64,000 nt of DNA from Methanothrix sp. GTDB lineage: Archaea > Halobacteriota > Methanosarcinia > Methanotrichales > Methanotrichaceae. Below, in pieces: positions 11,475-35,306 of this stretch. Each line of letters begins with the position of its first letter. The first letter of the stretch is position 1. Made by a program: the position numbers and the translations under genes. The notes beneath the pieces were generated by a model. The model searched no databases. It was not told the DNA's origin and saw only the letters and a program-made list of their open reading frames with translations. The stretch covers positions 1 to 64,000 of the forward strand of contig JARYLI010000007.1 of assembly GCA_029907715.1 (NCBI GenBank). Reading direction: 5' to 3'.

Positions 11475-12236
11475 ATGAAGAGAGAACTGGCTGTTCTCGT
11501 AGTTGTTGCTCTGGCTCTTGTCGGCATGGCCAGCGCAGCCAACTACATGTACGAGAAGGCGACCATTAAGGGCGTCGGCTACAAGAACGTGGAGATGATC
11601 GTCTCCACACAGTACGGATACGCGGGCGCCAAGCTTGTCGAGAAGGAGTCCGGATCCGGTAACGTGATCATCGAGAGGACTGAGCTCGAGGCCGAGAGGC
11701 AGCTGCAGAGGGACTACGAGCCTCTAGGTTATGGCTGTGAGTATCCAACCGGTGCTGTTCCAATGGACTACATCAACTTCACCAAGGAAGCTGAGTTCGA
11801 GTACATGCCTGTGAGCTACCAGACAGGCACATACGACCAGAAGTGGATCGAGAAGCTCTGCGTCCAGAACTACAGGATCGGCGCTGTCGTGACAGAGATG
11901 TACACGCATGCGGAGCACCTGCAGAAGAACACAGAGGTCAAGACCAGGCTGTATGGATTCCTTGATGGTGATGACGGCCAAGAAGGTACAACAGTAGATA
12001 AACTCTGCTGCACAGGCGTCCTTGAGGCGAACTTCAACAGCAACGTGATCGGCGTCGCTCACATCGGCTGGATGTCCCGCGAGCCCATGGCTGAGGCCGT
12101 GGTCAAGGGCAGACACGTCGAGTACGGCCGCAGCGTTGAGGACCTGACCGGTGTCTTCTCGATCGAGAAGTTCATCCAGCTCTGGGGCAACTCGACATGC
12201 GGCGCGATAAGCGTCGACTGGCTCCCGTGCATCTGA
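11475..12236 (+). CDS. Secreted protein, methanogen-type paralog family (member 1)
   Basis: 253 residues with a signal peptide (MKRELAVLVVVALALVGMASA). The rest is a soluble extracellular domain with five or more cysteines and two or three Asn-glycosylation-type sites. It ends with the shared module of the proteins at 12445, 13296 and 31656: IGAVVTEMY in the middle and LTGVFSIEKFIQLW near the end. I do not recognise a known function. It is the first of three consecutive genes of this kind and has its own hairpin terminator (12253-12281), so it may be transcribed alone. GGAGGTG lies about 8 nt before the ATG. A structural or adhesive envelope role is inference. Confidence 0.8.
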   Translation: MKRELAVLVVVALALVGMASAANYMYEKATIKGVGYKNVEMIVSTQYGYAGAKLVEKESGSGNVIIERTELEAERQLQRDYEPLGYGCEYPTGAVPMDYINFTKEAEFEYMPVSYQTGTYDQKWIEKLCVQNYRIGAVVTEMYTHAEHLQKNTEVKTRLYGFLDGDDGQEGTTVDKLCCTGVLEANFNSNVIGVAHIGWMSREPMAEAVVKGRHVEYGRSVEDLTGVFSIEKFIQLWGNSTCGAISVDWLPCI

Positions 12237-12252
12237 ACGCGTAGCCTGACGC

Positions 12253-12281
12253 AGACCCCTCACGGGGTCTGAGCTATTTTT
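12253..12281 (+). terminator. Hairpin terminator with U-run
   Basis: AGACCCC-TCAC-GGGGTCT is a perfect 7-bp stem followed by GAGCTATTTTTA, 17 bp after the stop at 12236. Confidence 0.75.
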
Positions 12282-12390
12282 ATCCAACTTCGATCGAATT
12301 CTTCTCCTGATTATATCCTGATTATATCCCTCCCGCACTCACGTCCGCTCTTTGCATCCATCCTCATGCGCGCCGGAGGGGATAAATAAA

Positions 12391-12400
12391 ATTTATATAA
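12391..12400 (+). promoter_or_regulatory. TATA box for the second secreted-protein gene
   Basis: ATTTATATAA, about 45 bp before the ATG at 12445, within an AT-rich tract. Transcription would start near 12420, leaving a short leader that includes a GGGGGTGA ribosome site. Confidence 0.65.
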
Positions 12401-12444
12401 CAAGAGAGAGAACATCTGAGATAAACCTAAGGGGGTGAAACTGA

Positions 12445-13266
12445 ATGAAGGGAGTAGTAATAGCGGCAATGCTTATAGCTGCTCTTTTAGCATGTAATCT
12501 GGCTTCAGCAAATCCACCACTTCCAGAGCCAAAGCAGTACGAGCAGTACTGCGAGGCGCAGAAGGTGGCAGGGAACGGTGTTATAGACATAAGCACGTCG
12601 ATCGTGGACAAGAAGATCGCTCTCGAGTACTACAACGTGATGGCTGGCGACGGCGATTTCGAGCTCGACTCCGAGCACCTGCTCTCGGAGAACGCGAGCA
12701 GGTTGAACAGGACAGGACCCAACAGCACCGGCGATAAGAAAGTTCCGCTCAACCTGTATGAAACCTCGAAGATGACCTACTCAGGAGATACACCGCTCGT
12801 CGGTGGTAAGTACCTCCACTCCAAGGCATTCTACGGAGGCATCGGAGCAGAGGTCCAGGAGGTCTTCTCTGTAACAGAGATGGAAAAGGAGCAGACTGTG
12901 TACTTCTCATCGACGGATCCAACAGGTCACTGGACCGCGAACCCTGCGACAGGAATGCCGTGGGGGTGGAAAGATGCGAATAATAACAAGAAGGTAGATC
13001 CTGGAGAGATCGATGAGAACCTTGCTAAGGCAGAGAAGTACAACCTGAAGTACAACGTGAGCCCGACGCATCTCGTCGGCTTTGAGACCAGGAACTACTT
13101 CAACGGCACGTGGGGCACCGACTCCAAGTGGCACAAGATATTCTACAAGGACATAAAGGATCACCAGTCGTTCACAGGCACATTCGAGGTCGAGAAGCTG
13201 ATCAAGTTCCACGAGGCGCCGTTCGCTGAGGAGAAGCCCAGCCCGTGCGCAGGCGTCGACTGCTGA
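12445..13266 (+). CDS. Secreted protein, methanogen-type paralog family (member 2)
   Basis: 273 residues, with signal peptide to about residue 23 (hydrophobic core AMLIAALLACNLASA). The module shared with three other proteins in the window spans nearly the whole mature part: a Gly-rich start (AGNGVIDIS), YGGIGAEVQEVF, and QSFTGTFEVEKLIKFHE near the C terminus. Several NxS/T sites are present. The C-terminal tail ends in CAGVDC. A segment with DANNNKKVDPGEID resembles a calcium-binding dockerin/EF-hand-like loop (inference). No enzyme motif is visible. The next gene starts 29 bp later and may be cotranscribed. Function unknown; probably exported to the envelope. Confidence 0.8.
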   Translation: MKGVVIAAMLIAALLACNLASANPPLPEPKQYEQYCEAQKVAGNGVIDISTSIVDKKIALEYYNVMAGDGDFELDSEHLLSENASRLNRTGPNSTGDKKVPLNLYETSKMTYSGDTPLVGGKYLHSKAFYGGIGAEVQEVFSVTEMEKEQTVYFSSTDPTGHWTANPATGMPWGWKDANNNKKVDPGEIDENLAKAEKYNLKYNVSPTHLVGFETRNYFNGTWGTDSKWHKIFYKDIKDHQSFTGTFEVEKLIKFHEAPFAEEKPSPCAGVDC

Positions 13267-13295
13267 TCTCCCTCTCTTTTTTTGAGGTGGTTCAA

Positions 13296-14384
13296 TTGAT
13301 CTGGATTCTGATCCTGGCGCTTCTGCTGATTCCAGCATCAGCCACTGTTGAGGAAAGCCCAACAGGCCCGCCGTACGCAGCGGACTCAGTGTATCCATCA
13401 TATCCATCAAGCTCTTTTGACGTCCCATCCGTTCCGCCCACACCAATCGCCCCCGGGAAGCTCGTCGTCTCTGTGCAGCAGACCGGTCCCATCAACGAGC
13501 GGGATAAGGAGTACACAACACCGGGGAAGACACTGGACTACATTGTGAACGTGAGGAACGAGGGGTACACGAACGTGACCGCCACCATCACAGTCAGCCC
13601 TGAGACCTGCGGAATGGACTGGTTCACCTGGACCTCCACGGAGGTGTTCATACCTGCCGGCGGCGAGGTCTCGGAGCCGCTCCAGGTCACGCCGCCCACA
13701 AACGCCATGGGCGGTGATTACAGATTCAGGGTCACAGCGACAGCACCAGGCGCAGAATCCTCATCGTATACAGAGAAGTTCAAGGTCCAGGGATACGATT
13801 ACGCATCCGAGACCATGATCAGCGGGAGCGGCCAGTTCCAGCTCAGCAAGGACGTCAGGTCGATGAACTCCGGGATAAAATCAAACAAGGACGTCTACTT
13901 CAGCGGCAGCGTCGAGGCGCTGGTGAAGAACGAGTATCTGGTGGACAGGGCGAAGGGGAGAAATCCGAACTTCGAGGAGCAGGACGCTGTCGATGACTAT
14001 GTCGCTCTGGCGCCCGGAGACACGCTCATGGGGAGCGAGAGCTTCAGGAGCTCGATCGCCTTCGGCGGGATCGGCGCGAAGGTCAGGGAGAGCTACAACC
14101 TCCAGGCGATGGAGTTCAAGAACCAGAACTTCAATCTCTACCAGACGGGAACGCTGGGAAGAAGCGCTGAGTTCAGGACAGCAGATAACTTCACAGGCTA
14201 CTTCATGCTTGACGCGCGACAATCCAAACCGGGACAGAGGAGCATGAAGGAGCACGAGGAGTACCTGGGGTCATTTGAGATAATGCGCAAGATACTCTTC
14301 AGGGACCAGCCGCTCAGGAGAGGATGCATCGGCGGAGCATGCGACTTCATGGACAACATAAATCTCCGGCTCAAATCAAGCTGA
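13296..14384 (+). CDS. Secreted protein: CARDB/NEW3-like domain plus shared paralog module (member 3)
   Basis: The start is TTG at 13296, because GAGGTGG sits 5 nt upstream and the signal peptide (MIWILILALLLIPASA) begins there; the frame is open upstream but overlaps the previous gene. 362 residues in order: signal peptide; Pro/Ser-rich spacer (about 17-60); an immunoglobulin-like domain of the NEW3/CARDB type (about 60-155, with LDYIVNVRNEGYTNVTATI); then the shared module (about 168-362) with ISGSGQFQLSKDV, FGGIGAKVRESYN and EYLGSFEIMRKILF. The two-domain layout is a small version of the protein at 31656. Function unknown; envelope location inferred. Confidence 0.8.
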   Translation: MIWILILALLLIPASATVEESPTGPPYAADSVYPSYPSSSFDVPSVPPTPIAPGKLVVSVQQTGPINERDKEYTTPGKTLDYIVNVRNEGYTNVTATITVSPETCGMDWFTWTSTEVFIPAGGEVSEPLQVTPPTNAMGGDYRFRVTATAPGAESSSYTEKFKVQGYDYASETMISGSGQFQLSKDVRSMNSGIKSNKDVYFSGSVEALVKNEYLVDRAKGRNPNFEEQDAVDDYVALAPGDTLMGSESFRSSIAFGGIGAKVRESYNLQAMEFKNQNFNLYQTGTLGRSAEFRTADNFTGYFMLDARQSKPGQRSMKEHEEYLGSFEIMRKILFRDQPLRRGCIGGACDFMDNINLRLKSS

Positions 14385-14581: not shown

Positions 14582-15724
14582 ATGGCATTACAGCCGACGC
14601 CCGTTGATATCGGGCTATTTGCGATAGTTCTGATTGTGCTCGTTGGTCCGTTCATGGTGAAAAAGATAGAGCACAACCTGGAGGCGTTTCTTTTCGTTAT
14701 GGGCGTGCTCGCAGTGACTCTCTCCGGACTTGAGAGCAAGGGGGTTCTTGAGCAGATATACATAAACAACCCTGAAGCGGTGGAGAAGATCGGGTGGCAC
14801 ATGGAGCTTGTGATGGAGGCCATAAAGGAGCCGATCATAAAGGGCATAGTGCCAGCTGTCCTGGTTGCAGGTCTGCTCTTCCACTATGGGAGAACAACAG
14901 CCCAGAGGGCCATGGCCAGAATCCTTGAGGTCGTTCCCCTGAAGATTATAGTCTTCCTTATGGTTGTGATTCTCGGCCTCTCATCGAGCATAATAACTGC
15001 GATCATAGCATCTCTTCTCCTGGTGGAGCTCGTCAACTGCATGCCCCTTGACAGGCAGACGAAGATCAACGTGGTGATCATCGCATGCTTCTCGATAGGC
15101 CTCGGCGCTGTTCTGACTCCAGTCGGAGAGCCGCTCTCGACTATAGCGATCACCAAGCTGCAGGGACCGCCCTATCACGCAGGATTCTTCTTCCTCTTCA
15201 ACAGGCTGGCGGTGTACATAATTCCAGGATGCCTGGCAATGGGACTGCTCGCGATGTTCTTCACAGGAAAGGCTGCGAAGGAGGCGTGTGCTGTTGCGGC
15301 TGAAGAGGCTGCAGGCCTGAGAGACGTCTTCGTCAGGGCTCTGAAGGTCTACATCTTCGTCATGGCGCTGCTTCTCCTTGGCGGGGGAATGAAGATAGTG
15401 ATCGACAAGTACCTGCTCACGATCCCGCCCCAGATCCTGTACTGGGTGAACATGGTATCTGCGATCCTCGACAACGCCACACTCACTGCAGCGGAGCTGA
15501 GCCCGTCGATGGAGATAACCCAGATCCAGGCTGTGCTGATGGGACTTCTCATATCAGGCGGCATGCTGATCCCCGGGAACATCCCGAACATCATATCAGC
15601 AGGCAAGCTCAATATCACCAGCAAGGAGTGGGCGAGGCTTGGCGTTCCGCTCGGCCTGATACTGATGGTTCTCTACTTCGTGTGGATATTCTACATACCC
15701 TTCCACATAGAGTTCCATCTGTAA
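14582..15724 (+). CDS. Predicted cation transporter, DUF1646 family
   Basis: A 380-residue integral membrane protein with about 10-11 hydrophobic segments. Features typical of this archaeal family (COG4756-like) include SSIITAIIASLLLVELV, GLGAVLTPVGEPLSTIAI, a DNATLTAAELSPSM segment and GGMLIPGNIPNIISA. The last two resemble the re-entrant polar motifs of the wider arsenite/citrate ion-transporter superfamily. The transported ion is not known. GAGGTGA precedes the ATG by 6 nt. CATTTAATAG at about 14511 is a possible TATA box. Single-gene unit. Confidence 0.85.
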   Translation: MALQPTPVDIGLFAIVLIVLVGPFMVKKIEHNLEAFLFVMGVLAVTLSGLESKGVLEQIYINNPEAVEKIGWHMELVMEAIKEPIIKGIVPAVLVAGLLFHYGRTTAQRAMARILEVVPLKIIVFLMVVILGLSSSIITAIIASLLLVELVNCMPLDRQTKINVVIIACFSIGLGAVLTPVGEPLSTIAITKLQGPPYHAGFFFLFNRLAVYIIPGCLAMGLLAMFFTGKAAKEACAVAAEEAAGLRDVFVRALKVYIFVMALLLLGGGMKIVIDKYLLTIPPQILYWVNMVSAILDNATLTAAELSPSMEITQIQAVLMGLLISGGMLIPGNIPNIISAGKLNITSKEWARLGVPLGLILMVLYFVWIFYIPFHIEFHL

Positions 15725-20289: not shown

Positions 20290-20525
20290 GACTACGACCT
20301 TTTCTCCCCTCGATTCAATCCTTTGAAACATGCAGGTTGGCGTCCCACTAGATAATCTCTTCGTTTGGGAGGGGACGCTGAAGATTCTCAGACTGTGCAG
20401 GCGCCCTGGACCATGGTTGCATCCACATGACCCAGATCTTCAGGGCATTCTCGACTCTAGATACTGTTTTATACCTTGATGGAAAGAGTGAACCGAAAGA
20501 AAATCGTTGTCACTGTGTGGTCCTG

Positions 20526-22085
20526 ATGAAGCCCATTTACCTCATACTCATCGTGCTGCTTCTGAGCGGGATCGCCTCCGCCCAGCTGAAGCCAGATCGG
20601 GAGCGTTTCGATATCGAGATCCACCCTGGAGAGGTCATACACAAGACGCTGACCCTGACAAACACAGGCGAGGAGCCGGTATCGAGGATAAGAGCCACCT
20701 CTGTGGGTGGAGATGCGAAGGATATGATAATGATCGATATACCAAAGAAGGCGATAGATCCGGGCGATGATATGGATGTGGACATATTCTTCATGGCGCC
20801 TCCTGAGACAAAGCCCGGAGCGTACGCGGGATTCTTCTACATCTTCGATGAGACCGCACCACCTGCTCTTCCAATAGCCATAAGCTTCAACCTCAACGTC
20901 ATCGAGAAGGACAGCTACAACGTCGGGCTCTACATAAACGATGCCAGGGAGGCGGGCGGGGAGGTCACCCCTGATGAGCCTGCAGAGTTCGATCTCGAGG
21001 TGAGAAACACCGGAAGGTTCAGGGATCTCATCGAGGTGTACATTCCTGAGGTCCCAGAGGGCTGGCACCCGAAGCTCTTTGATGGGGATGAGGAGATAGA
21101 TCTGCCATACTCGCTCCCGCTCCCATCCGGCTCAAGCCGTATTCTGAGGCTGGAGGTTGAGGTTGATGAGAACGCAAGGAGCGGTTCAATGAGGATCGTG
21201 GCGGAATCACAGGGCAACAGATCAAAGAATGCCAGTGTTGCTGTGAATCTCGAGGTTGGGGTTGTGGTCAAGGGTTATGATGTCAGGATAGATGTCCCGA
21301 AGCGAGTGGTCGTGAACAGGAGCTATGAGGGGAGGATGACCCTCTTCCTGGAGAACAACGTCAGGGTGATGGTCGATGCAGTATCAGATCCATCTCTGCT
21401 GATCGTGCCATCGAGCATGGTTCTGGACATCAACGGCAGGTTCGGATCAGCCAACTTCTCTCTGATCGCGACCGAGCCATCAGGATACGCAATAGTCTTC
21501 AGGATGGTCGATTCGAATGGCGTGCCGTTCCCGCCTGAGATTGTGTATCTGGAGGCCATAGAGCCATCAGGGCTCGCGATAATCACATCGGCTGATCCCA
21601 GGTACACAGCCATGGCCTCTCTGCTCTCAGGAAACAACACGACCGTGCCTGTGATTCAGGTGGGGGACAGGTTGAGCAAGGAGATCAGGGACCAGCTCCT
21701 CCCGTACAGGGATGTGATCATACTGGGCGATGAATCAGCGGTAAGCAGCAAGATCGAGTCTGAGCTATCCGGCTTCAACGTCTCGAGGATCGCAGGCGCA
21801 GATCTCGCCGAGACCTCCTGGATCCTCGCAGACCGGATGTGGTCCAACCAGACGGCAGTGGTCGTCTCCGGGCCGGGCGAGGTGGATGTCTTCAGATCAT
21901 ATCAGATCGCAAAGCGCTCAGGTCTGCCACTGGTTGTTTGTGGCGATGCGCTCACAGATTCGATCAGGGCAGCGATGGAGAACATGATGGCGAGAGGTCT
22001 GGAGAAAGCGATCATCGCAAGCGGCGTGAGCGATACAGCGGTGGAATCGCTCAAAGCAGCTGGCCTCTCAGTGGAGGTGTCGTGA
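20526..22085 (+). CDS. Cell-surface protein with NEW3-like domains and a C-terminal CWB2-like module
   Basis: Starts at ATG 20526, where a signal peptide begins (MKPIYLILIVLLLSGIASA); the open frame to 20427 lacks support. 519 residues in order: signal peptide; two or three immunoglobulin-like NEW3 domains (about 25-340, for example HKTLTLTNTGEEPVSRIRA and DLEVRNTGRFRDLIEVYIPE); and a module (about 365-519) with VIILGDESAVSSKIE, RIAGADLAETSWILADRM and KAIIASGVSDTAVESLKAAG. This last part matches the cell-wall-binding repeat 2 pattern (IvGGtsaVs...RIaGadRyeTa). It overlaps the next gene's ATG by one base and is probably coupled to it. TATA candidate GTTTTATACC at about 20466. Confidence 0.82.
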   Translation: MKPIYLILIVLLLSGIASAQLKPDRERFDIEIHPGEVIHKTLTLTNTGEEPVSRIRATSVGGDAKDMIMIDIPKKAIDPGDDMDVDIFFMAPPETKPGAYAGFFYIFDETAPPALPIAISFNLNVIEKDSYNVGLYINDAREAGGEVTPDEPAEFDLEVRNTGRFRDLIEVYIPEVPEGWHPKLFDGDEEIDLPYSLPLPSGSSRILRLEVEVDENARSGSMRIVAESQGNRSKNASVAVNLEVGVVVKGYDVRIDVPKRVVVNRSYEGRMTLFLENNVRVMVDAVSDPSLLIVPSSMVLDINGRFGSANFSLIATEPSGYAIVFRMVDSNGVPFPPEIVYLEAIEPSGLAIITSADPRYTAMASLLSGNNTTVPVIQVGDRLSKEIRDQLLPYRDVIILGDESAVSSKIESELSGFNVSRIAGADLAETSWILADRMWSNQTAVVVSGPGEVDVFRSYQIAKRSGLPLVVCGDALTDSIRAAMENMMARGLEKAIIASGVSDTAVESLKAAGLSVEVS

Positions 22086-25000
22086 TGCGCGCCATGTATC
22101 TTGCAGTTCTTCTACTGCTTCTGGTATCACAGGCAGGTGCTGTGTTCGAGAGGGGGGCGAAATCAGATGTCGATGAGATGATACTCGTCGGCGGACACGA
22201 CTGGCATGCTGTTGTGGCATCGGTGCCGCTCTCGACATGGAGCGAGGAGAACACCACTGTGGTGAAGCCGATGCTGATACTCCCGAGGGAGGTGAAGACC
22301 GGAAGGCGGCTCGGCTGGGTGGAGGGCACAGATCTTGAGAGGTACGGCATGGACGCCATCCTCCAGTCGATGATATCCGGCAACATCTCCGCGATGGTGA
22401 TCCACGGCTCCGGCGAGGACGTCAAGACCCTCGTCAAAACAGCTCAGAAGCAGGGAATGAAGGTTTACATGACCGTCTCCCTGGAGCCGGAAAGCGATGA
22501 GGGGATGTGGACATCAACCTCACTGGTAAAAACGAACGATTCGACCCTGGCCGGAATGATCCGCGATGCGTTCAGGGGTGTCGAGCTCAGTAAGAGCCTG
22601 GAGGAGGGAAACGATACAGAGATCGAGGGATACTCTCTGGATGCAAACGGGAACCGGGGCTCTCTACTGTGCCCTGTGAATCCGAATGTCAGGGAGGATC
22701 TGTACGCCAGGATCGAGGAGATCATAGATGAGTACAAGGTGGATGGGGTGGTGCTGTACAGGTTCGGCTTCGAGGGAGATGGCTACTGCTTCTGCGATGT
22801 CTGCAAGGAGGAGTTCTACAGAGATACAGGGCTGGACCTGACGAGGATAGGGTCCTCAGGTTACAACTACCAGAAGTGGCTCTCGTGGAGGGAGCAGAAG
22901 GTCCTGGAGATCGCGCGAGAGGCGCGTAACATAACCAGAAATCTCGGGCCGGTGGAGCTCGGCATCGCCATAGACGAACCCTTTGACAAATCGAAGGGCT
23001 ACAATCTCTATGATCTCTCCGGTACCTCAGACTTCGTTATAATTTCCTCAGTGCCGGTGCGAGATGCGGAGCTCGCCGCCAGGGTGACTGATACGCCGGT
23101 ATATGTGAGGCTCAGCGATGATTATGTCGAGTACATGCTCTCCACCCAGAACGTTGAGGGCGCTCTGAACTACATCGAGAGTCTGGTCGGATCAGGATGT
23201 GACGGCATCTTGTTCGAGTACAACGTCGTTTACACACCGCTCTGGTCTGAGCTCGAGCCGCCATCGAAGGCAGCTCAGTGGCTCATAAAGGCGCTCGGCA
23301 TGAGGACGCTCGGCATCGGAGATGTCTCCTGGGCATGCAATGATACGATAAGGTACAACAGCAGCGAGGAGCTGGCGGTGCTTGTGAGCAGCCGGTGGAT
23401 TTACTCCCCAGGCGCGGTTCTGGTCGGTGAGAACTACACTGCAGGGATCCAGGCAGCTACAGTGGCCTCTTACCTGAACTGGCCTGTTCTGTTCTTCTCC
23501 GCCAACATATCGAACACCACGCTCTCAGAGATCGAGAGGCTCGGTTGCAGGGATGCCATCATCGCAGGAGACGCGCCACCTGACGTGGTCAGGAGTCTGG
23601 AGGAGATTAACGTCACAGTCCACAGATACGATCTGGATCTTCTTCTGAGAGAGATGAGGGCGCGCAACGATTCCGTCAGATCAATGGTGCTGACAAACAG
23701 CCATGACATATCCCTGATACCTCCAAAGCCGGAGAGCAAAATAAAGAGGGCGATCGTAAAGGATCTCTGGATCACTGTCGAGACCACGCCTGCGAGCATT
23801 CCATCAGAGGAGGCCGGTGAGGTCGTGAGGATGAACATAACGCTCAGGAACACCGGCACAGAGCCCCTGAAGGGTATAAGTCTCGTCGACATGTTCGCAA
23901 GCGGCCGGTATGTGAGAATGCCGATATACTACAAGGGAAAGCTCTCGATCACCGACCCGATATCCAAAGAGCCGTCTGATCCAGCAGGCGCGTTCTTCAA
24001 CGGCTCGATACTCACGTGGGATCTCGAGAAGATCGACCCGGACGAGTCGGTATCCCTGAACCTAGAGGTCGTGGTTTTACACCCGATGGATGCCGGCTGG
24101 GTGCAGCCTCTCGACAGGGGCATGACGGTCAGGTACACCGGCGTTGAGGATAACGTCACTGTGAAGACCGAGAACGACGGGCCGGTCTCGGAGATAACGT
24201 ACCCAGGAGAGATGCCCGTCGGGACTGCGATAGTCACATGGAACGTCACTGAGCCGCACAGCTACACGGCCCTCCGGCTATTCAGCCCGCACGGGCTGAT
24301 AGGCTACGTGAGGTTCAGCGCCGGGTCGAACGGATACCGCGCAGCTCTTCCGATGCCGGAGCCTGGAAGCTGGTTGTTCAATATTGAGGTCGGCGGCGGC
24401 ACAGAGTACCGGACGAAGAACATGACCATAGAGGTGAGGTCGACACTGCCGCCGAACAACGTGACAGCGTTCAGCCACACAAAGGTGCCGAAGCTATCTC
24501 TGGCATCGATGCAGGTTGCGGCAGCAAAGCACGCCATTGTGATGGATGTGGCAAAGGATCCGCAGTATGTGGATCCAGAAGATGTGGAGGAGTGGCTGCG
24601 CGAGAGCGTGGAGGAGATGGAGCTGAGGCCTGAGTACCTATTGGTGGTCGGAGACCCCGGATCGCTTCCATTCCCGACGACCGGTGTGAAGCAGGAGCTC
24701 GAGGGAGATCCATTCTCCTTTGATATTTACAGGGATTACAGGATAGAGATGGATGACGACAACTACACAGAGGTGGCGACCGGCCGGTTCATAGGTCTCA
24801 GCGTATATGACGTCTCGCAGATGGTTGCCAGGACGCTGAGCTACGACAGGCTTCAGGGCAACTGGAAGAACACATCGCTCGTTGTGGCCACGCCTGTTGA
24901 GTGGCCCTGGAGCCCGGTGCCGATCAGGATAAAGGAGTATCTTGCGGACGCCGGCCTGAACTCGAGAGACCTGCGATGGGAGGAGGCGACATTCCAGAGG

Positions 25001-26407
25001 GTCTCGGCGTTCATGAACAATGGCGTGGGGATAGTCCACTTCGATCACCATGGTTCGGAGAAGGGCTGGGCGCTCTCGAGCTGGGCGATGACAGACTCGT
25101 TCCTGGATGAGACGCAGGTCAAGCAGTTCGTTCTCGCTCCGCAGCTCACAACGAGCAACTCATGTCTTAGCGCCAGACTGAAGGGATTCAGCATCAACGT
25201 GAGCGGCACGGAGATGTACATACCCATGAGGCTCGACGACTCGATAGCCCTCGCGTTCGTCAGGGCTGGAGCCGTGGGATATGTGGGATCGTCCGCGCTT
25301 GTGTGGATATACGTATCAGAGGACTACAACAAGCGCTTCTACCAGGCGCTGGTGTTCGAGAATGCAACCGCGGGCGGGGCCATGAGCCAGGCTGAGAACC
25401 TGTACATCATGAAGATGGATGGCGCGGAGAAGATATCCTTCGAGAGGATAGAGGAGATGCTGCCGCCATGGGAGTACTCCATGAAGGAGATGATGAACCA
25501 GACGGCGAGCAGCTTCATGCTCTTCGGAGATCCTGAGTTCAGGCCTTATCTTCCAAAAACACCGGAGCTTCCGTACAGGATAGATGAGGTCAAGGGCAAC
25601 GATACTGTTGCAGTTTCCGTCTCCCCCATCTCAGAGCAGGCCACGGACTGGCTCTACTGGCTCGGCGTGGACAGCACCGACGGGGAGATCAGCCTCAACG
25701 CGCCTCCTGCGATCATAGCTGAGGTGCTGCTTCCCAGGGATGCGGAGGATGTCGTGGTCAAAGAAGGGTCCAGGGTCGTGTGGCATGCGGAGGATGTATC
25801 AGGAGAGCACAAGCGTGTTATGTGGCCTGTCATCAACCCGCGGCTCGGAGATACTAGGAGCTTCTCAGTTGAATACCGCGTCGTCCCCGAGGAGATCCAG
25901 ATCATAAACATCACCGCCGGCTGGAACGCGGTCTCCATATACGTCAAGCCCAGGGATCCGCGCGTGGAGAAGTACATCAAGGGCAAGCCATACCGGGGAA
26001 TATTCACGGTGTCCGATGATGCCTGGAGCTACTCGCTGAAGGACTCGATGATCACGAACATAACAACCCTCGAGCCTGGAATGGGCTACATAATCGACAG
26101 CTATGATGATTTCACCATGAAGATATCCGGCAAGCCTGTGGAGCGACCGTACAGGCTCAAGCTGAGACCCGGCTGGAATCTGATCGGGCTGCCTGTGAAC
26201 GAATCGCTGGCTCCCATGAACATCACCGTCAACACAGAGCACCGGCGGTACAGCTTCTCAGAGGCGGTCGAGAAGGGTCTGATCTCGGCATTCATGTGGA
26301 AGTATGAGGATGACGACTGGAAGCCGCTGAAGATGGACGAGCCGATGGAGCCGGGAAGGGCATACCTGATAGAGGTCACGAAGGAGTGCAGGCTGGAGTT
26401 CAGGTGA
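22085..26407 (+). CDS. Giant secreted protein: glycosidase-like barrel, CWB2-like segment and C25-type peptidase domain
   Basis: 1440 residues from ATG 22085, overlapping the upstream stop (TGATG). Order: signal peptide (1-19, MRAMYLAVLLLLLVSQAGA); a TIM-barrel-like region (about 80-430) with NPNVREDLYARIEEIIDEYKV, DGVVLYRFGFEGDG and a CFCDVCKEEF cysteine set, resembling GHL10-type predicted glycosidases; a CWB2-like segment (about 440-560); a beta-sandwich with an RNTGTEPLKGISLVDMF pattern; a gingipain-type C25 domain (about 820-1160) with VGDPGSLPFP, VHFDHHGSEKGW (His988/His989) and TTSNSCLSA (Cys1027) as the likely dyad; and two copies of a GWN-containing tail motif (ITAGWNAVSIYV and LRPGWNLIGLPV). 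Many NxS/T sites. The operon with the preceding protein suggests a surface-processing pair. Substrates unknown. Confidence 0.85.
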   Translation: MRAMYLAVLLLLLVSQAGAVFERGAKSDVDEMILVGGHDWHAVVASVPLSTWSEENTTVVKPMLILPREVKTGRRLGWVEGTDLERYGMDAILQSMISGNISAMVIHGSGEDVKTLVKTAQKQGMKVYMTVSLEPESDEGMWTSTSLVKTNDSTLAGMIRDAFRGVELSKSLEEGNDTEIEGYSLDANGNRGSLLCPVNPNVREDLYARIEEIIDEYKVDGVVLYRFGFEGDGYCFCDVCKEEFYRDTGLDLTRIGSSGYNYQKWLSWREQKVLEIAREARNITRNLGPVELGIAIDEPFDKSKGYNLYDLSGTSDFVIISSVPVRDAELAARVTDTPVYVRLSDDYVEYMLSTQNVEGALNYIESLVGSGCDGILFEYNVVYTPLWSELEPPSKAAQWLIKALGMRTLGIGDVSWACNDTIRYNSSEELAVLVSSRWIYSPGAVLVGENYTAGIQAATVASYLNWPVLFFSANISNTTLSEIERLGCRDAIIAGDAPPDVVRSLEEINVTVHRYDLDLLLREMRARNDSVRSMVLTNSHDISLIPPKPESKIKRAIVKDLWITVETTPASIPSEEAGEVVRMNITLRNTGTEPLKGISLVDMFASGRYVRMPIYYKGKLSITDPISKEPSDPAGAFFNGSILTWDLEKIDPDESVSLNLEVVVLHPMDAGWVQPLDRGMTVRYTGVEDNVTVKTENDGPVSEITYPGEMPVGTAIVTWNVTEPHSYTALRLFSPHGLIGYVRFSAGSNGYRAALPMPEPGSWLFNIEVGGGTEYRTKNMTIEVRSTLPPNNVTAFSHTKVPKLSLASMQVAAAKHAIVMDVAKDPQYVDPEDVEEWLRESVEEMELRPEYLLVVGDPGSLPFPTTGVKQELEGDPFSFDIYRDYRIEMDDDNYTEVATGRFIGLSVYDVSQMVARTLSYDRLQGNWKNTSLVVATPVEWPWSPVPIRIKEYLADAGLNSRDLRWEEATFQRVSAFMNNGVGIVHFDHHGSEKGWALSSWAMTDSFLDETQVKQFVLAPQLTTSNSCLSARLKGFSINVSGTEMYIPMRLDDSIALAFVRAGAVGYVGSSALVWIYVSEDYNKRFYQALVFENATAGGAMSQAENLYIMKMDGAEKISFERIEEMLPPWEYSMKEMMNQTASSFMLFGDPEFRPYLPKTPELPYRIDEVKGNDTVAVSVSPISEQATDWLYWLGVDSTDGEISLNAPPAIIAEVLLPRDAEDVVVKEGSRVVWHAEDVSGEHKRVMWPVINPRLGDTRSFSVEYRVVPEEIQIINITAGWNAVSIYVKPRDPRVEKYIKGKPYRGIFTVSDDAWSYSLKDSMITNITTLEPGMGYIIDSYDDFTMKISGKPVERPYRLKLRPGWNLIGLPVNESLAPMNITVNTEHRRYSFSEAVEKGLISAFMWKYEDDDWKPLKMDEPMEPGRAYLIEVTKECRLEFR

Positions 26408-31655: not shown

Positions 31656-34600
31656 TCAGTCCTGGAACTTTATGTTCTTCTGTATCTGGAAGCTTCCATT
31701 GAGCCTCTGATCCGCCTTCATCTTCTTGCTGAACTTGGAGTACTCAGTTCTGGTGTTCCACATGCCCTCGAACGCCTGCTCTGTGGAGAACGCCACCGTG
31801 TTGTTTCTGTAATTCACAGATCTTATCATCCCGCGCTCGCTCTTATCGAGCTGGCTCATGTTGAAGCGCTCTGTTATGCTCGCGCCCATCCCTCCGTGGA
31901 AGACAGGCGAGTCAAACCGCTTGAACCCCTTCAGAACGCCTCCATCAAAGGATATATCCTTGACCTCGCTGAAGTTGACCGTCGGGTTTGATTTCTCCAT
32001 GCACCTGACAGAATCCATGTTCAGGTTCCCGCTGCCCTTCAGGTCCTCCTCGTACGAGAGGGCATTCTCCATGAACGTATCTCTTATTGAGACCTCCCCC
32101 CTCCCGCTCACTGTTGTGGACTCGATGTAGAGCATCCCATCACCCCGGGTTTTCGTCTCAGGCAGCGGGCTCGGTCTGCTTTTCGGGGTGTGCGAGACCC
32201 ACTGCAGCATGTACGGCCCGTCCTCTGCGCTGCTCTGGCCGCATGTGGCCCTGACCGATATCCCCAGGATTGTCCCCGCGCTCTGTCCGGGGATCAGGCA
32301 GCTCCAGTAGCCATCCCTCCGGCTGCCGCTCTCCAGCAGCATCTTGATCTGCGCGGTTCTCTTCATGCTGACCATGTCAGCTCTGGCTATGCTCTGGTCC
32401 GCCACCCCGTACTCAAGGATGACGGAATCCACATCCGAGTCCCCTCTGATATGGGCTACGACCCTGACAGGGGCACCTGCAACCGGCTCCGGAGGTATCG
32501 CGGTGACGTCCAGAATGCGGACCGGGGCTCGTCTGTCCCTCACGCTCTCTATCCCCAGCGTGGTGTTCAGCGACGGATCCTGAATGCCCATGGAAATGCT
32601 GTCCTGCTCAGATGACACGTTATCGCCAGTGGCGCTCTGTCCCGGCACATCGATCTGCTTTCTCATGATCAGCTCCCGGATGTATTCGATCACCTCCCTG
32701 AGGATGGAGAGGGCAGACTGATCTCTGGATGCGGGGATGCTTTCACGGTATCCATCCGGGCTGAGCATACCGCTTGTCCTGTCCTTCACAGCTCTGCTCA
32801 CGTTCTCAGATGCGACCGCGTTCCTGGCGGATGAAGCTCCAGTGGCATTGGTGGTTAGGGGGATTGTGATGTTTTCTTTTTCTCCGGCTGTGCTGTTGAG
32901 CGATGCGCTCGATTCCCTCTCATCAGACACATTTTCATTCGCGCCGATCTCTTTTACTGGAGATACACCAGCAGATGTCTCCGCACTTGATGCAGCGGGA
33001 AGGGTGCTCTGCGGTTTCCCAGAAGGTCTCGGCTCGAGCCCCCTGAGAAGCCTTATTCTCAGAGGCTCCCTGTCCAGAAGATGCGATCTCGATGGGGTCA
33101 GCCCCTCCGCTGTAACAGTATCGGAGATATCCATCGTGAGAGGTATCGTCATGGTCACCGTTTTTCTCTGCTTCGGTGCGAGGAAGTCGATGCTTCCCAT
33201 GGGGCCTATGACCCTGCTCGTCACGAATATCTCCTGAAGCGGCACGCCGCCCACATTCTCCACGGTGCAGGAGATGGTCACCTTGTCCCCAAAGCGTGCC
33301 GCCGAGGGCGAGACGCTGAGCTTAAGATCCAAAGCTGCATCGACCACAACCGCCTCACAGATTGCATCTGCACTCCATATCCTGCCGCGGGCGTCCCTGC
33401 CCGTTGCCTTGAAAATCAATGTACGGTTCTCGTTAACAGAGAGCGAGGGAGTGGCGGTCCTGAACTCGCCAGGCGCCAGGTCTCCGATAGATGCAACCGT
33501 CCCGAACTCCGATTCCGAGATTCGCACATCATACAGGAGATCGGTGCCGGGGTTGGAGACGAGACAGCTCACGTTGAACGCATCTCCGGCAGGGGACATA
33601 ACACGAGCTGGCATCACAGACAGAGTTATGTTCGGCCGGATGACCTTCATGGACAGAACCGCTGTGTCAGAGACGACCTGATCGCCGGCTCCGTAGCCCG
33701 TTGCTGTGATCGTCACATCTTTAGATGCATCTGATGAGATGGATGCGGCTATTCTTGTTCGGGTTCCTGGAGGGATCTCCCCGATCCTGCCGCTCCTGAT
33801 TCCTGCGAGCGTAACGTTCCTGAGGGCCACCTCTCCGGTGTTCTCTATTGTGCACAGGACCTCAGACTCCTCCCCGGGATATAGAACAAGCTCTGATGGC
33901 TCAAGCGAGAGGTTCATACCGGCTCTGTAGACATGCACAGCTGTCTGCGAGAAGGCGTAAATCTCCCGGCCGGTCGAGTCCCTGGCAGATGCCATTACAA
34001 TGTCATCTATCGATGAGGAGATCTGCCTCTTCCTGCTGACATGGCTGACCTCTCCCGGCTTCAGCTCGTTTATCTCCCCGATATGGCCGAAGCTGTCCTC
34101 AACAGAGATATCTCTGAGCAGATCCGAGCCGGAGTTCTCAAGCCTGACTGTGATGTTCGTCACTCCTCCCGATATTATCTCCGGCGGATCAGCGCTGGCA
34201 CTCACATTAAGCTCAGGCGAGACGACCCATACCGTCACGGATGTCTCGTTCGCGACAGGAGCGCCGTTCCTGTCGCTCCCGGATACATTCGCCACGATCT
34301 CTGTCGTGGAGTTGATGGTGAAACTGCCCTCCAGGCTCATGGATCTTCCGGGCAGGATGAACTGGGTTGTCATCCTCCTCCCGTGGCAGTGCAGATCCAC
34401 GTTGTAGATGACATCACTGCAGGAGTTTCTGACCGTGCAGCGGTAGCTTATGTTATCCCCTGCTCTCGCCCTCGTTGTGCCCGTCTCAAGGATCAGATCC
34501 AGGCCGCTGGAGGGCCTGTACTCCATGGTCCTCAGGGTGGACTCCGAGTCTGCAGCTCCCACCGGCACTGAGCGCGACCGGGGGTGTGTGACATCACCGA

Positions 34601-35306
34601 CAAGAGTCTCTCCGGCCTCGTTTACAGCCAGAACCCTTAGACCTTTATCAGCCAGTGAGCCGATCACAAGCGTGTGGCTCTCCCCGGGGCCGAGAGCAGG
34701 TATTATGCCGAGGATGCTGTTCCTGCTGTCGACTATCTTAACGCGCCTCAGCTCATTCTTCCCGAGGTTCGCGATCCTGACCCTGTACTCTGCGCCTCCG
34801 CCGATCCTGCTTGTCTCCACAGTCGCCCTGAGAGCAGGATACGGAGCCTGGCGCACCTCTTTATCCAGAACCCCGACGCTGATATCCTGGGATGCGAGCT
34901 CCCTCCCATCTGAGCTTGCGGTGATCTTTAAACGTGATGGAGATAAAATAGGCGGCGTCTTCGCTCTTATGCTGAAGACATCCCCGGGAGACAGTGTGTC
35001 ACGAAACCCGATCTCCCTGGCGCCGTCTGTCACAGATATGTTTGAGAGTGCGCGATCCCCGGTGTTTCTGAGGACGCATGTGTAATCCAGTGCATCGCCC
35101 GCGACCACATCCGCACAATCTGCTCTGACCGTCATCTCCAGTTCCGGGCCAGAGGAGGTAGGGAGGGGCAGCCAGAAGGGCCAGGCGCATGCTGAGGGTA
35201 TCGTACATGGCAGGAGGGATACGAAAAGGAGACCGAGGCTAAGCCAAGCTGAAAACCGGATACAGCTTCGCGTAGTCGGGCTACAAACAAGGCCCAGTCC
35301 CTTCAT
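31656..35306 (-). CDS. Large secreted surface protein: repeated Ig-like domains plus shared paralog module (member 4)
   Basis: 1216 residues. A signal peptide lies in the first 42 residues (core WLSLGLLFVSLLP, ending CAW). About six Ig-like CARDB/NEW3-type domains follow (about 50-690), each with a DxLxYxCxxxNTGxxxLxNI-like core, for example NISYRCTVRNSCSDVIYNV and FNVSCLVSNPGTDLLYDV. A Ser/Thr/Asn-rich linker (about 700-900) and a further domain precede the shared module (about 1057-1216: TVSGRGEVSIRDT, HGGMGASITERFN, RLNGSFQIQKNIKF). Many NxS/T sites. The architecture suggests a stalk carrying a terminal module. TATA-like CATTTAAATATTT lies about 20 bp before the ATG, so the leader is short. 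Function unknown. Confidence 0.85.
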   Translation of the reverse strand: MKGLGLVCSPTTRSCIRFSAWLSLGLLFVSLLPCTIPSACAWPFWLPLPTSSGPELEMTVRADCADVVAGDALDYTCVLRNTGDRALSNISVTDGAREIGFRDTLSPGDVFSIRAKTPPILSPSRLKITASSDGRELASQDISVGVLDKEVRQAPYPALRATVETSRIGGGAEYRVRIANLGKNELRRVKIVDSRNSILGIIPALGPGESHTLVIGSLADKGLRVLAVNEAGETLVGDVTHPRSRSVPVGAADSESTLRTMEYRPSSGLDLILETGTTRARAGDNISYRCTVRNSCSDVIYNVDLHCHGRRMTTQFILPGRSMSLEGSFTINSTTEIVANVSGSDRNGAPVANETSVTVWVVSPELNVSASADPPEIISGGVTNITVRLENSGSDLLRDISVEDSFGHIGEINELKPGEVSHVSRKRQISSSIDDIVMASARDSTGREIYAFSQTAVHVYRAGMNLSLEPSELVLYPGEESEVLCTIENTGEVALRNVTLAGIRSGRIGEIPPGTRTRIAASISSDASKDVTITATGYGAGDQVVSDTAVLSMKVIRPNITLSVMPARVMSPAGDAFNVSCLVSNPGTDLLYDVRISESEFGTVASIGDLAPGEFRTATPSLSVNENRTLIFKATGRDARGRIWSADAICEAVVVDAALDLKLSVSPSAARFGDKVTISCTVENVGGVPLQEIFVTSRVIGPMGSIDFLAPKQRKTVTMTIPLTMDISDTVTAEGLTPSRSHLLDREPLRIRLLRGLEPRPSGKPQSTLPAASSAETSAGVSPVKEIGANENVSDERESSASLNSTAGEKENITIPLTTNATGASSARNAVASENVSRAVKDRTSGMLSPDGYRESIPASRDQSALSILREVIEYIRELIMRKQIDVPGQSATGDNVSSEQDSISMGIQDPSLNTTLGIESVRDRRAPVRILDVTAIPPEPVAGAPVRVVAHIRGDSDVDSVILEYGVADQSIARADMVSMKRTAQIKMLLESGSRRDGYWSCLIPGQSAGTILGISVRATCGQSSAEDGPYMLQWVSHTPKSRPSPLPETKTRGDGMLYIESTTVSGRGEVSIRDTFMENALSYEEDLKGSGNLNMDSVRCMEKSNPTVNFSEVKDISFDGGVLKGFKRFDSPVFHGGMGASITERFNMSQLDKSERGMIRSVNYRNNTVAFSTEQAFEGMWNTRTEYSKFSKKMKADQRLNGSFQIQKNIKFQD

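Follow-up and report, generated by a model that had tools for sequence, protein, structure and literature searches.

What is the sequence module that recurs in four secreted proteins of a Methanothrix contig, alone in two of them and behind Ig-like domains in the others? The window analysed here is a stretch of 64,000 nucleotides (contig JARYLI010000007.1), and three of the four genes form a cluster on its forward strand. The first (11475-12236, +) encodes a protein of 253 aa with a signal peptide followed by the core and no extra domain. The second (12445-13266, +) encodes 273 aa, again without an Ig-like domain, with its core at 12562-13215. The third (13245-14384, +) has a single N-terminal Ig-like domain ahead of a core at 13815-14306; the domain, with approximate limits 13458-13790, is of the NEW3/NPCBM_assoc type (Pfam PF10633, E 0.0013, a match that falls short of the model's cut-off). 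The fourth gene (31656-35306, -) encodes 1216 aa, and phmmer and alignment place its C-terminal core at 31659-32114. All four open reading frames are found where a preliminary description of this DNA had put them, except that the frame given as starting at TTG 13296 (362 codons) may begin at GTG 13245, yielding 379 aa. The GTG start offers the better signal peptide, RRRR followed by a hydrophobic stretch, and creates an overlap with the final part of the 12445 gene.

The products of 12445 and 13296 and the C-terminus of the 31656-35306 product have in common a module of ∼155 residues, with pairwise phmmer E values of about 1e-10 to 7e-17. A fourth copy, P0005 (L003), is encoded elsewhere in this genome, on a different contig, and matches the 12445 product at ∼1e-53. 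Invariant columns of the module alignment include the GxG opening, the GG[IM]GA..E block and GxF near the end. Scans of Pfam and NCBIfam returned no model covering the module, and a search of the PDB by sequence gave a single match, at the chance level (E 0.35).

The 11475 product is a more difficult case: pairwise phmmer finds no significant match between it and the other module proteins (E ≥ 0.013), and an earlier profile comparison with a narrow family gave only 6%. Profile iteration with loose inclusion thresholds inflated the links and was discarded in favour of two strict families without common members, one of 68 and one of 96 sequences, at an inclusion E of 1e-6. Aligned with hhalign, the 11475-family and module-family profiles match over the whole module, with a probability of 91.8%, a score of 48.3 and P 7.4e-7. 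The register is kept throughout: the opening Gly block, a second block (SGSGN against GDGDF-like), INFTKE against NFxE, IGAVxTEMY against IGAxVQExF, and finally DLTGVFSIEKFIQ against SFTGxFEVEKLIKF. Controls fall far lower, at 0.6% with columns reversed and at best 1.9% (score 20.5) in 60 column shuffles. Because the match is in register and both controls lie so far beneath it, the 11475 product is, on profile evidence, a true but distant relative of the module in the other three. The blocks that the preliminary description saw in all four proteins are thus confirmed, by phmmer for three and by profiles for the fourth. Its reading of IGAVVTEMY in 11475 as a weaker copy does not hold; the motif is instead a highly conserved core of its own family and not a degraded one. 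Gly-rich and Phe/Ile-rich motifs are frequent in secreted beta proteins, and short low-complexity motifs by themselves are weak evidence, so the shared blocks might be put down to chance. Against this stand E values from about 1e-10 down to 1e-54 between four of the members, conservation of the module in 50/50 Methanotrichaceae genomes, and the reversal and shuffle controls passed for the fifth member (11475). The probability left to a chance origin is negligible, and at the level of sequence comparison it can be regarded as already refuted.

The module is the core of the archaeal sheath (SH) proteins, the sheath formers described by Medvedeva et al. 2024 (PMC11576556). To the preliminary description it looked undescribed; published work and synteny show it to be already known, as the core of the Methanothrix sheath proteins, though it is missing from the Pfam and NCBIfam domain libraries. 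SH-type features present here are signal peptides, multiple copies, tandem clusters and Ig-like additions. Synteny comes from the genome G046, which matches M. thermoacetophila PT. In G046 the ORF for the S-layer protein spans 720 aa, the same length as Mthe_0677 (PMC3361143), and eight protein genes lie between this ORF and the 11475 orthologue. The window follows the G046 gene order and opens at the matching place with a fragment of an S-layer gene (2-151, -), the counterpart of Mthe_0677 and the synteny anchor; the G046 orthologues of the clustered genes are 89-98% identical. Counted from Mthe_0677 in G046, the 11475, 12445 and 13245 genes are orthologues of Mthe_0668, Mthe_0667 and Mthe_0666, with the locus tags inferred from the eight genes that separate the S-layer ORF from the 11475 orthologue. 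In M. thermoacetophila PT, Mthe_0668 and Mthe_0667 are the most transcribed SH genes, and Mthe_0667, the second main SH protein, has been modelled in one ring with Mthe_0668 (PMC11576556). Directly downstream of the sheath cluster, in the window and at the same place in G046, is a gene for a DUF1646 membrane protein (14582-15724, +).

Published SH architectures consist of the core alone or the core with one or many Ig-like domains, the latter termed ‘sheath adhesins’ (PMC11576556). The 1216-aa protein has the sheath-adhesin architecture by phmmer, Pfam and profiles. Its stalk, previously counted as six domains, comprises seven Ig-like repeats of the DUF7507/CARDB/DUF11 type (residues 55 to about 752; 33051-35144, -), detected with Pfam and each recovered by a leave-one-out profile. 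In a hydropathy scan of the four proteins, the N-terminal segment alone rises above threshold, and no membrane segment is found beyond the signal peptide. The core is therefore the likeliest anchor of the Ig-like arms. In outline, the preliminary idea of modular envelope proteins that share a C-terminal head or anchoring unit stands: one core is used alone or behind Ig-like arms, and the proteins lack a membrane anchor. The 11475 family has invariant cysteines at positions 129, 178, 179, 242 and 252, which fits the published use of DTT for taking Methanothrix sheaths apart (PMC6242892). Elsewhere in the window, a large secreted protein (21839-26407, +), possibly a surface protease, has a Peptidase_C25 domain of the gingipain type (Pfam E 5e-44) and adjoins another secreted Ig-like protein at 20427-22085.

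Both core types are found throughout the Methanotrichaceae, partly in tandem clusters: each of the 50 genomes has 1 to 13 matches to the module, and the 11475 family is likewise present in 50/50, reaching 26 matches at most. The 13296 product has close relatives in MAGs labelled Methanothrix and Methanotrichaceae. The genome of the window itself (G000) holds at least five further 11475 relatives, more divergent ones, on contigs C1, C2 and C9 (L181-L184); in some of them just the C-terminal half of the core is present. The module is absent from the other Methanosarcinia (0/188 genomes). Among 393 genomes drawn evenly across the phylum, the two families occur outside Methanotrichaceae only in families f10 and f11. 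The McrA of an f11 member has its best match, a full-length one, in the ANME-1 enzyme 3SQG, at 1281 bits against 662 for the runner-up, which identifies f11 as ANME-1. In one f11 genome (G414, L138) the core ends an open frame of 1565 codons whose upstream part has the look of several beta domains; the frame looks like a larger armed version of the core-behind-domains architecture. The f10 genome G441 (L137, L165), 95% complete, has one copy of each core type and no McrA match. SH proteins are reported from all Methanotrichales and patchily from ANME-1, in many copies (PMC11576556), a range that the present one (all Methanotrichaceae, few ANME-1) fits. No sequence match attributable to the sheathed Methanomicrobiales (Methanospirillum, Methanolinea) came out of the 393-genome draw; similarity between SH groups is reported to be low (PMC11576556).

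SH-like proteins are also reported in viruses (PMC11576556). Homologues of 11475 are encoded on 16 IMG/VR contigs, at 63-70% identity. PHROGs identifies portal genes in two of the sampled viral contigs (L112, L122) and tail-protein matches in L107 and L122. The presence of these homologues agrees with the reported viral proteins. The viral scans yielded no relative of the 12445-type module, and GenBank phage records no 11475 homologue.

The published SH core consists of two six-stranded antiparallel beta-sheets (PMC11576556). AlphaFold predicts an all-beta structure with long strands for the 12445 product (17 sequences), but with a pLDDT of 54.1 and a pTM of 0.50, and Foldseek with this model finds meaningless matches only (TM at most about 0.2). 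The model of the 11475 product (18 sequences) is unusable, with a pLDDT of 38.7. The ring assembly and amyloid-like fold suggested here for the cores are drawn from published work. The M. hungatei sheath is a stack of rings; each ring has two giant beta-sheets, and every SH monomer supplies a part of both (PMC10593813). Being homologous to ring-forming SH proteins, the cores studied here should join likewise, and their co-assembly within cross-beta rings of the sheath is most likely.

A scheme can be proposed on this basis. Core-type sheath subunits would come from the 11475 and 12445 genes; the 13245/13296 gene would add a subunit bearing a single Ig-like domain, and the 31656-35306 gene one with a seven-Ig stalk. 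All would be exported by their signal peptides, with no membrane anchor, and the cores would meet edge to edge to form the cross-beta rings. An Ig-like arm, where present, would be fixed in the wall of the sheath by its core, pointing outwards and plausibly serving adhesion; outward Ig arms with an adhesive role are a published proposal (PMC11576556). Taken as a whole, an SH core in four genes, ring-forming cores and outward, plausibly adhesive arms make up an explanation that is very probably correct. Within it, we infer both adhesion by the arms and the mixed assembly of all four proteins.

The two core types could instead have separate roles, with rings built from the 11475 family only and the 12445/13296/31656 module acting as a related but distinct secreted domain, used for plugs or as decoration on the sheath or S-layer. 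The distance between the families, which have no pairwise match, speaks for such a division, as does the outcome of the viral scans, which detected the 11475 type but no 12445 type. It is at odds with the 12445 orthologue being, by gene count, Mthe_0667, the second main SH protein, modelled in one ring with Mthe_0668; the two types also share their taxonomic range and gene cluster, and their profile homology spans the full length. A separation of roles is thus improbable, and co-assembly of both core types remains the preferred reading. Extending it, the core may be a general docking unit, with Ig-armed subunits such as the 31656-35306 product entering the same rings as plain ones at low dose; this is a tentative idea, held at somewhat less than even odds. 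If true, the filament's coat would be adhesive towards syntrophic partners and tunable, and would stand in for membrane-anchored adhesins.

With these results, a family for which Pfam and NCBIfam offer no model is connected with the Methanothrix sheath, and sequence comparison reveals one core common to the main, plain sheath protein and to those with Ig-like domains. The profiles allow sheath genes and sheath adhesins to be recognised independently of structure prediction. Compared with the SH proteins of Methanothrix already described (PMC11576556), the genes are orthologous by synteny to Mthe_0668 and Mthe_0667, the core likewise occurs alone or with Ig-like domains, and the distribution is the same: Methanotrichales-wide, patchy in ANME-1, with viral homologues. 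SH proteins were grouped there via structure and are linked here via sequence profiles; there is otherwise no basic difference. MspA of M. thermophila PT (ABK14853.1, reported as Mthe_1069) has also been reported from the Methanothrix sheath. According to PMC11576556 it is structurally unrelated to SH and was misidentified as the main sheath protein; the place in G046 presumed for Mthe_1069, a guessed position, holds no such gene. For the SH protein of M. hungatei (WP_011449234.1; PMC10593813, PMC6242892) no sequence match came up. It is nonetheless a sheath-forming, secreted and beta-rich protein of the same structural family as Methanothrix SH (PMC11576556), and Methanomicrobiales SH proteins are reported to be without Ig-like domains, unlike the Ig-armed ones of Methanothrix.
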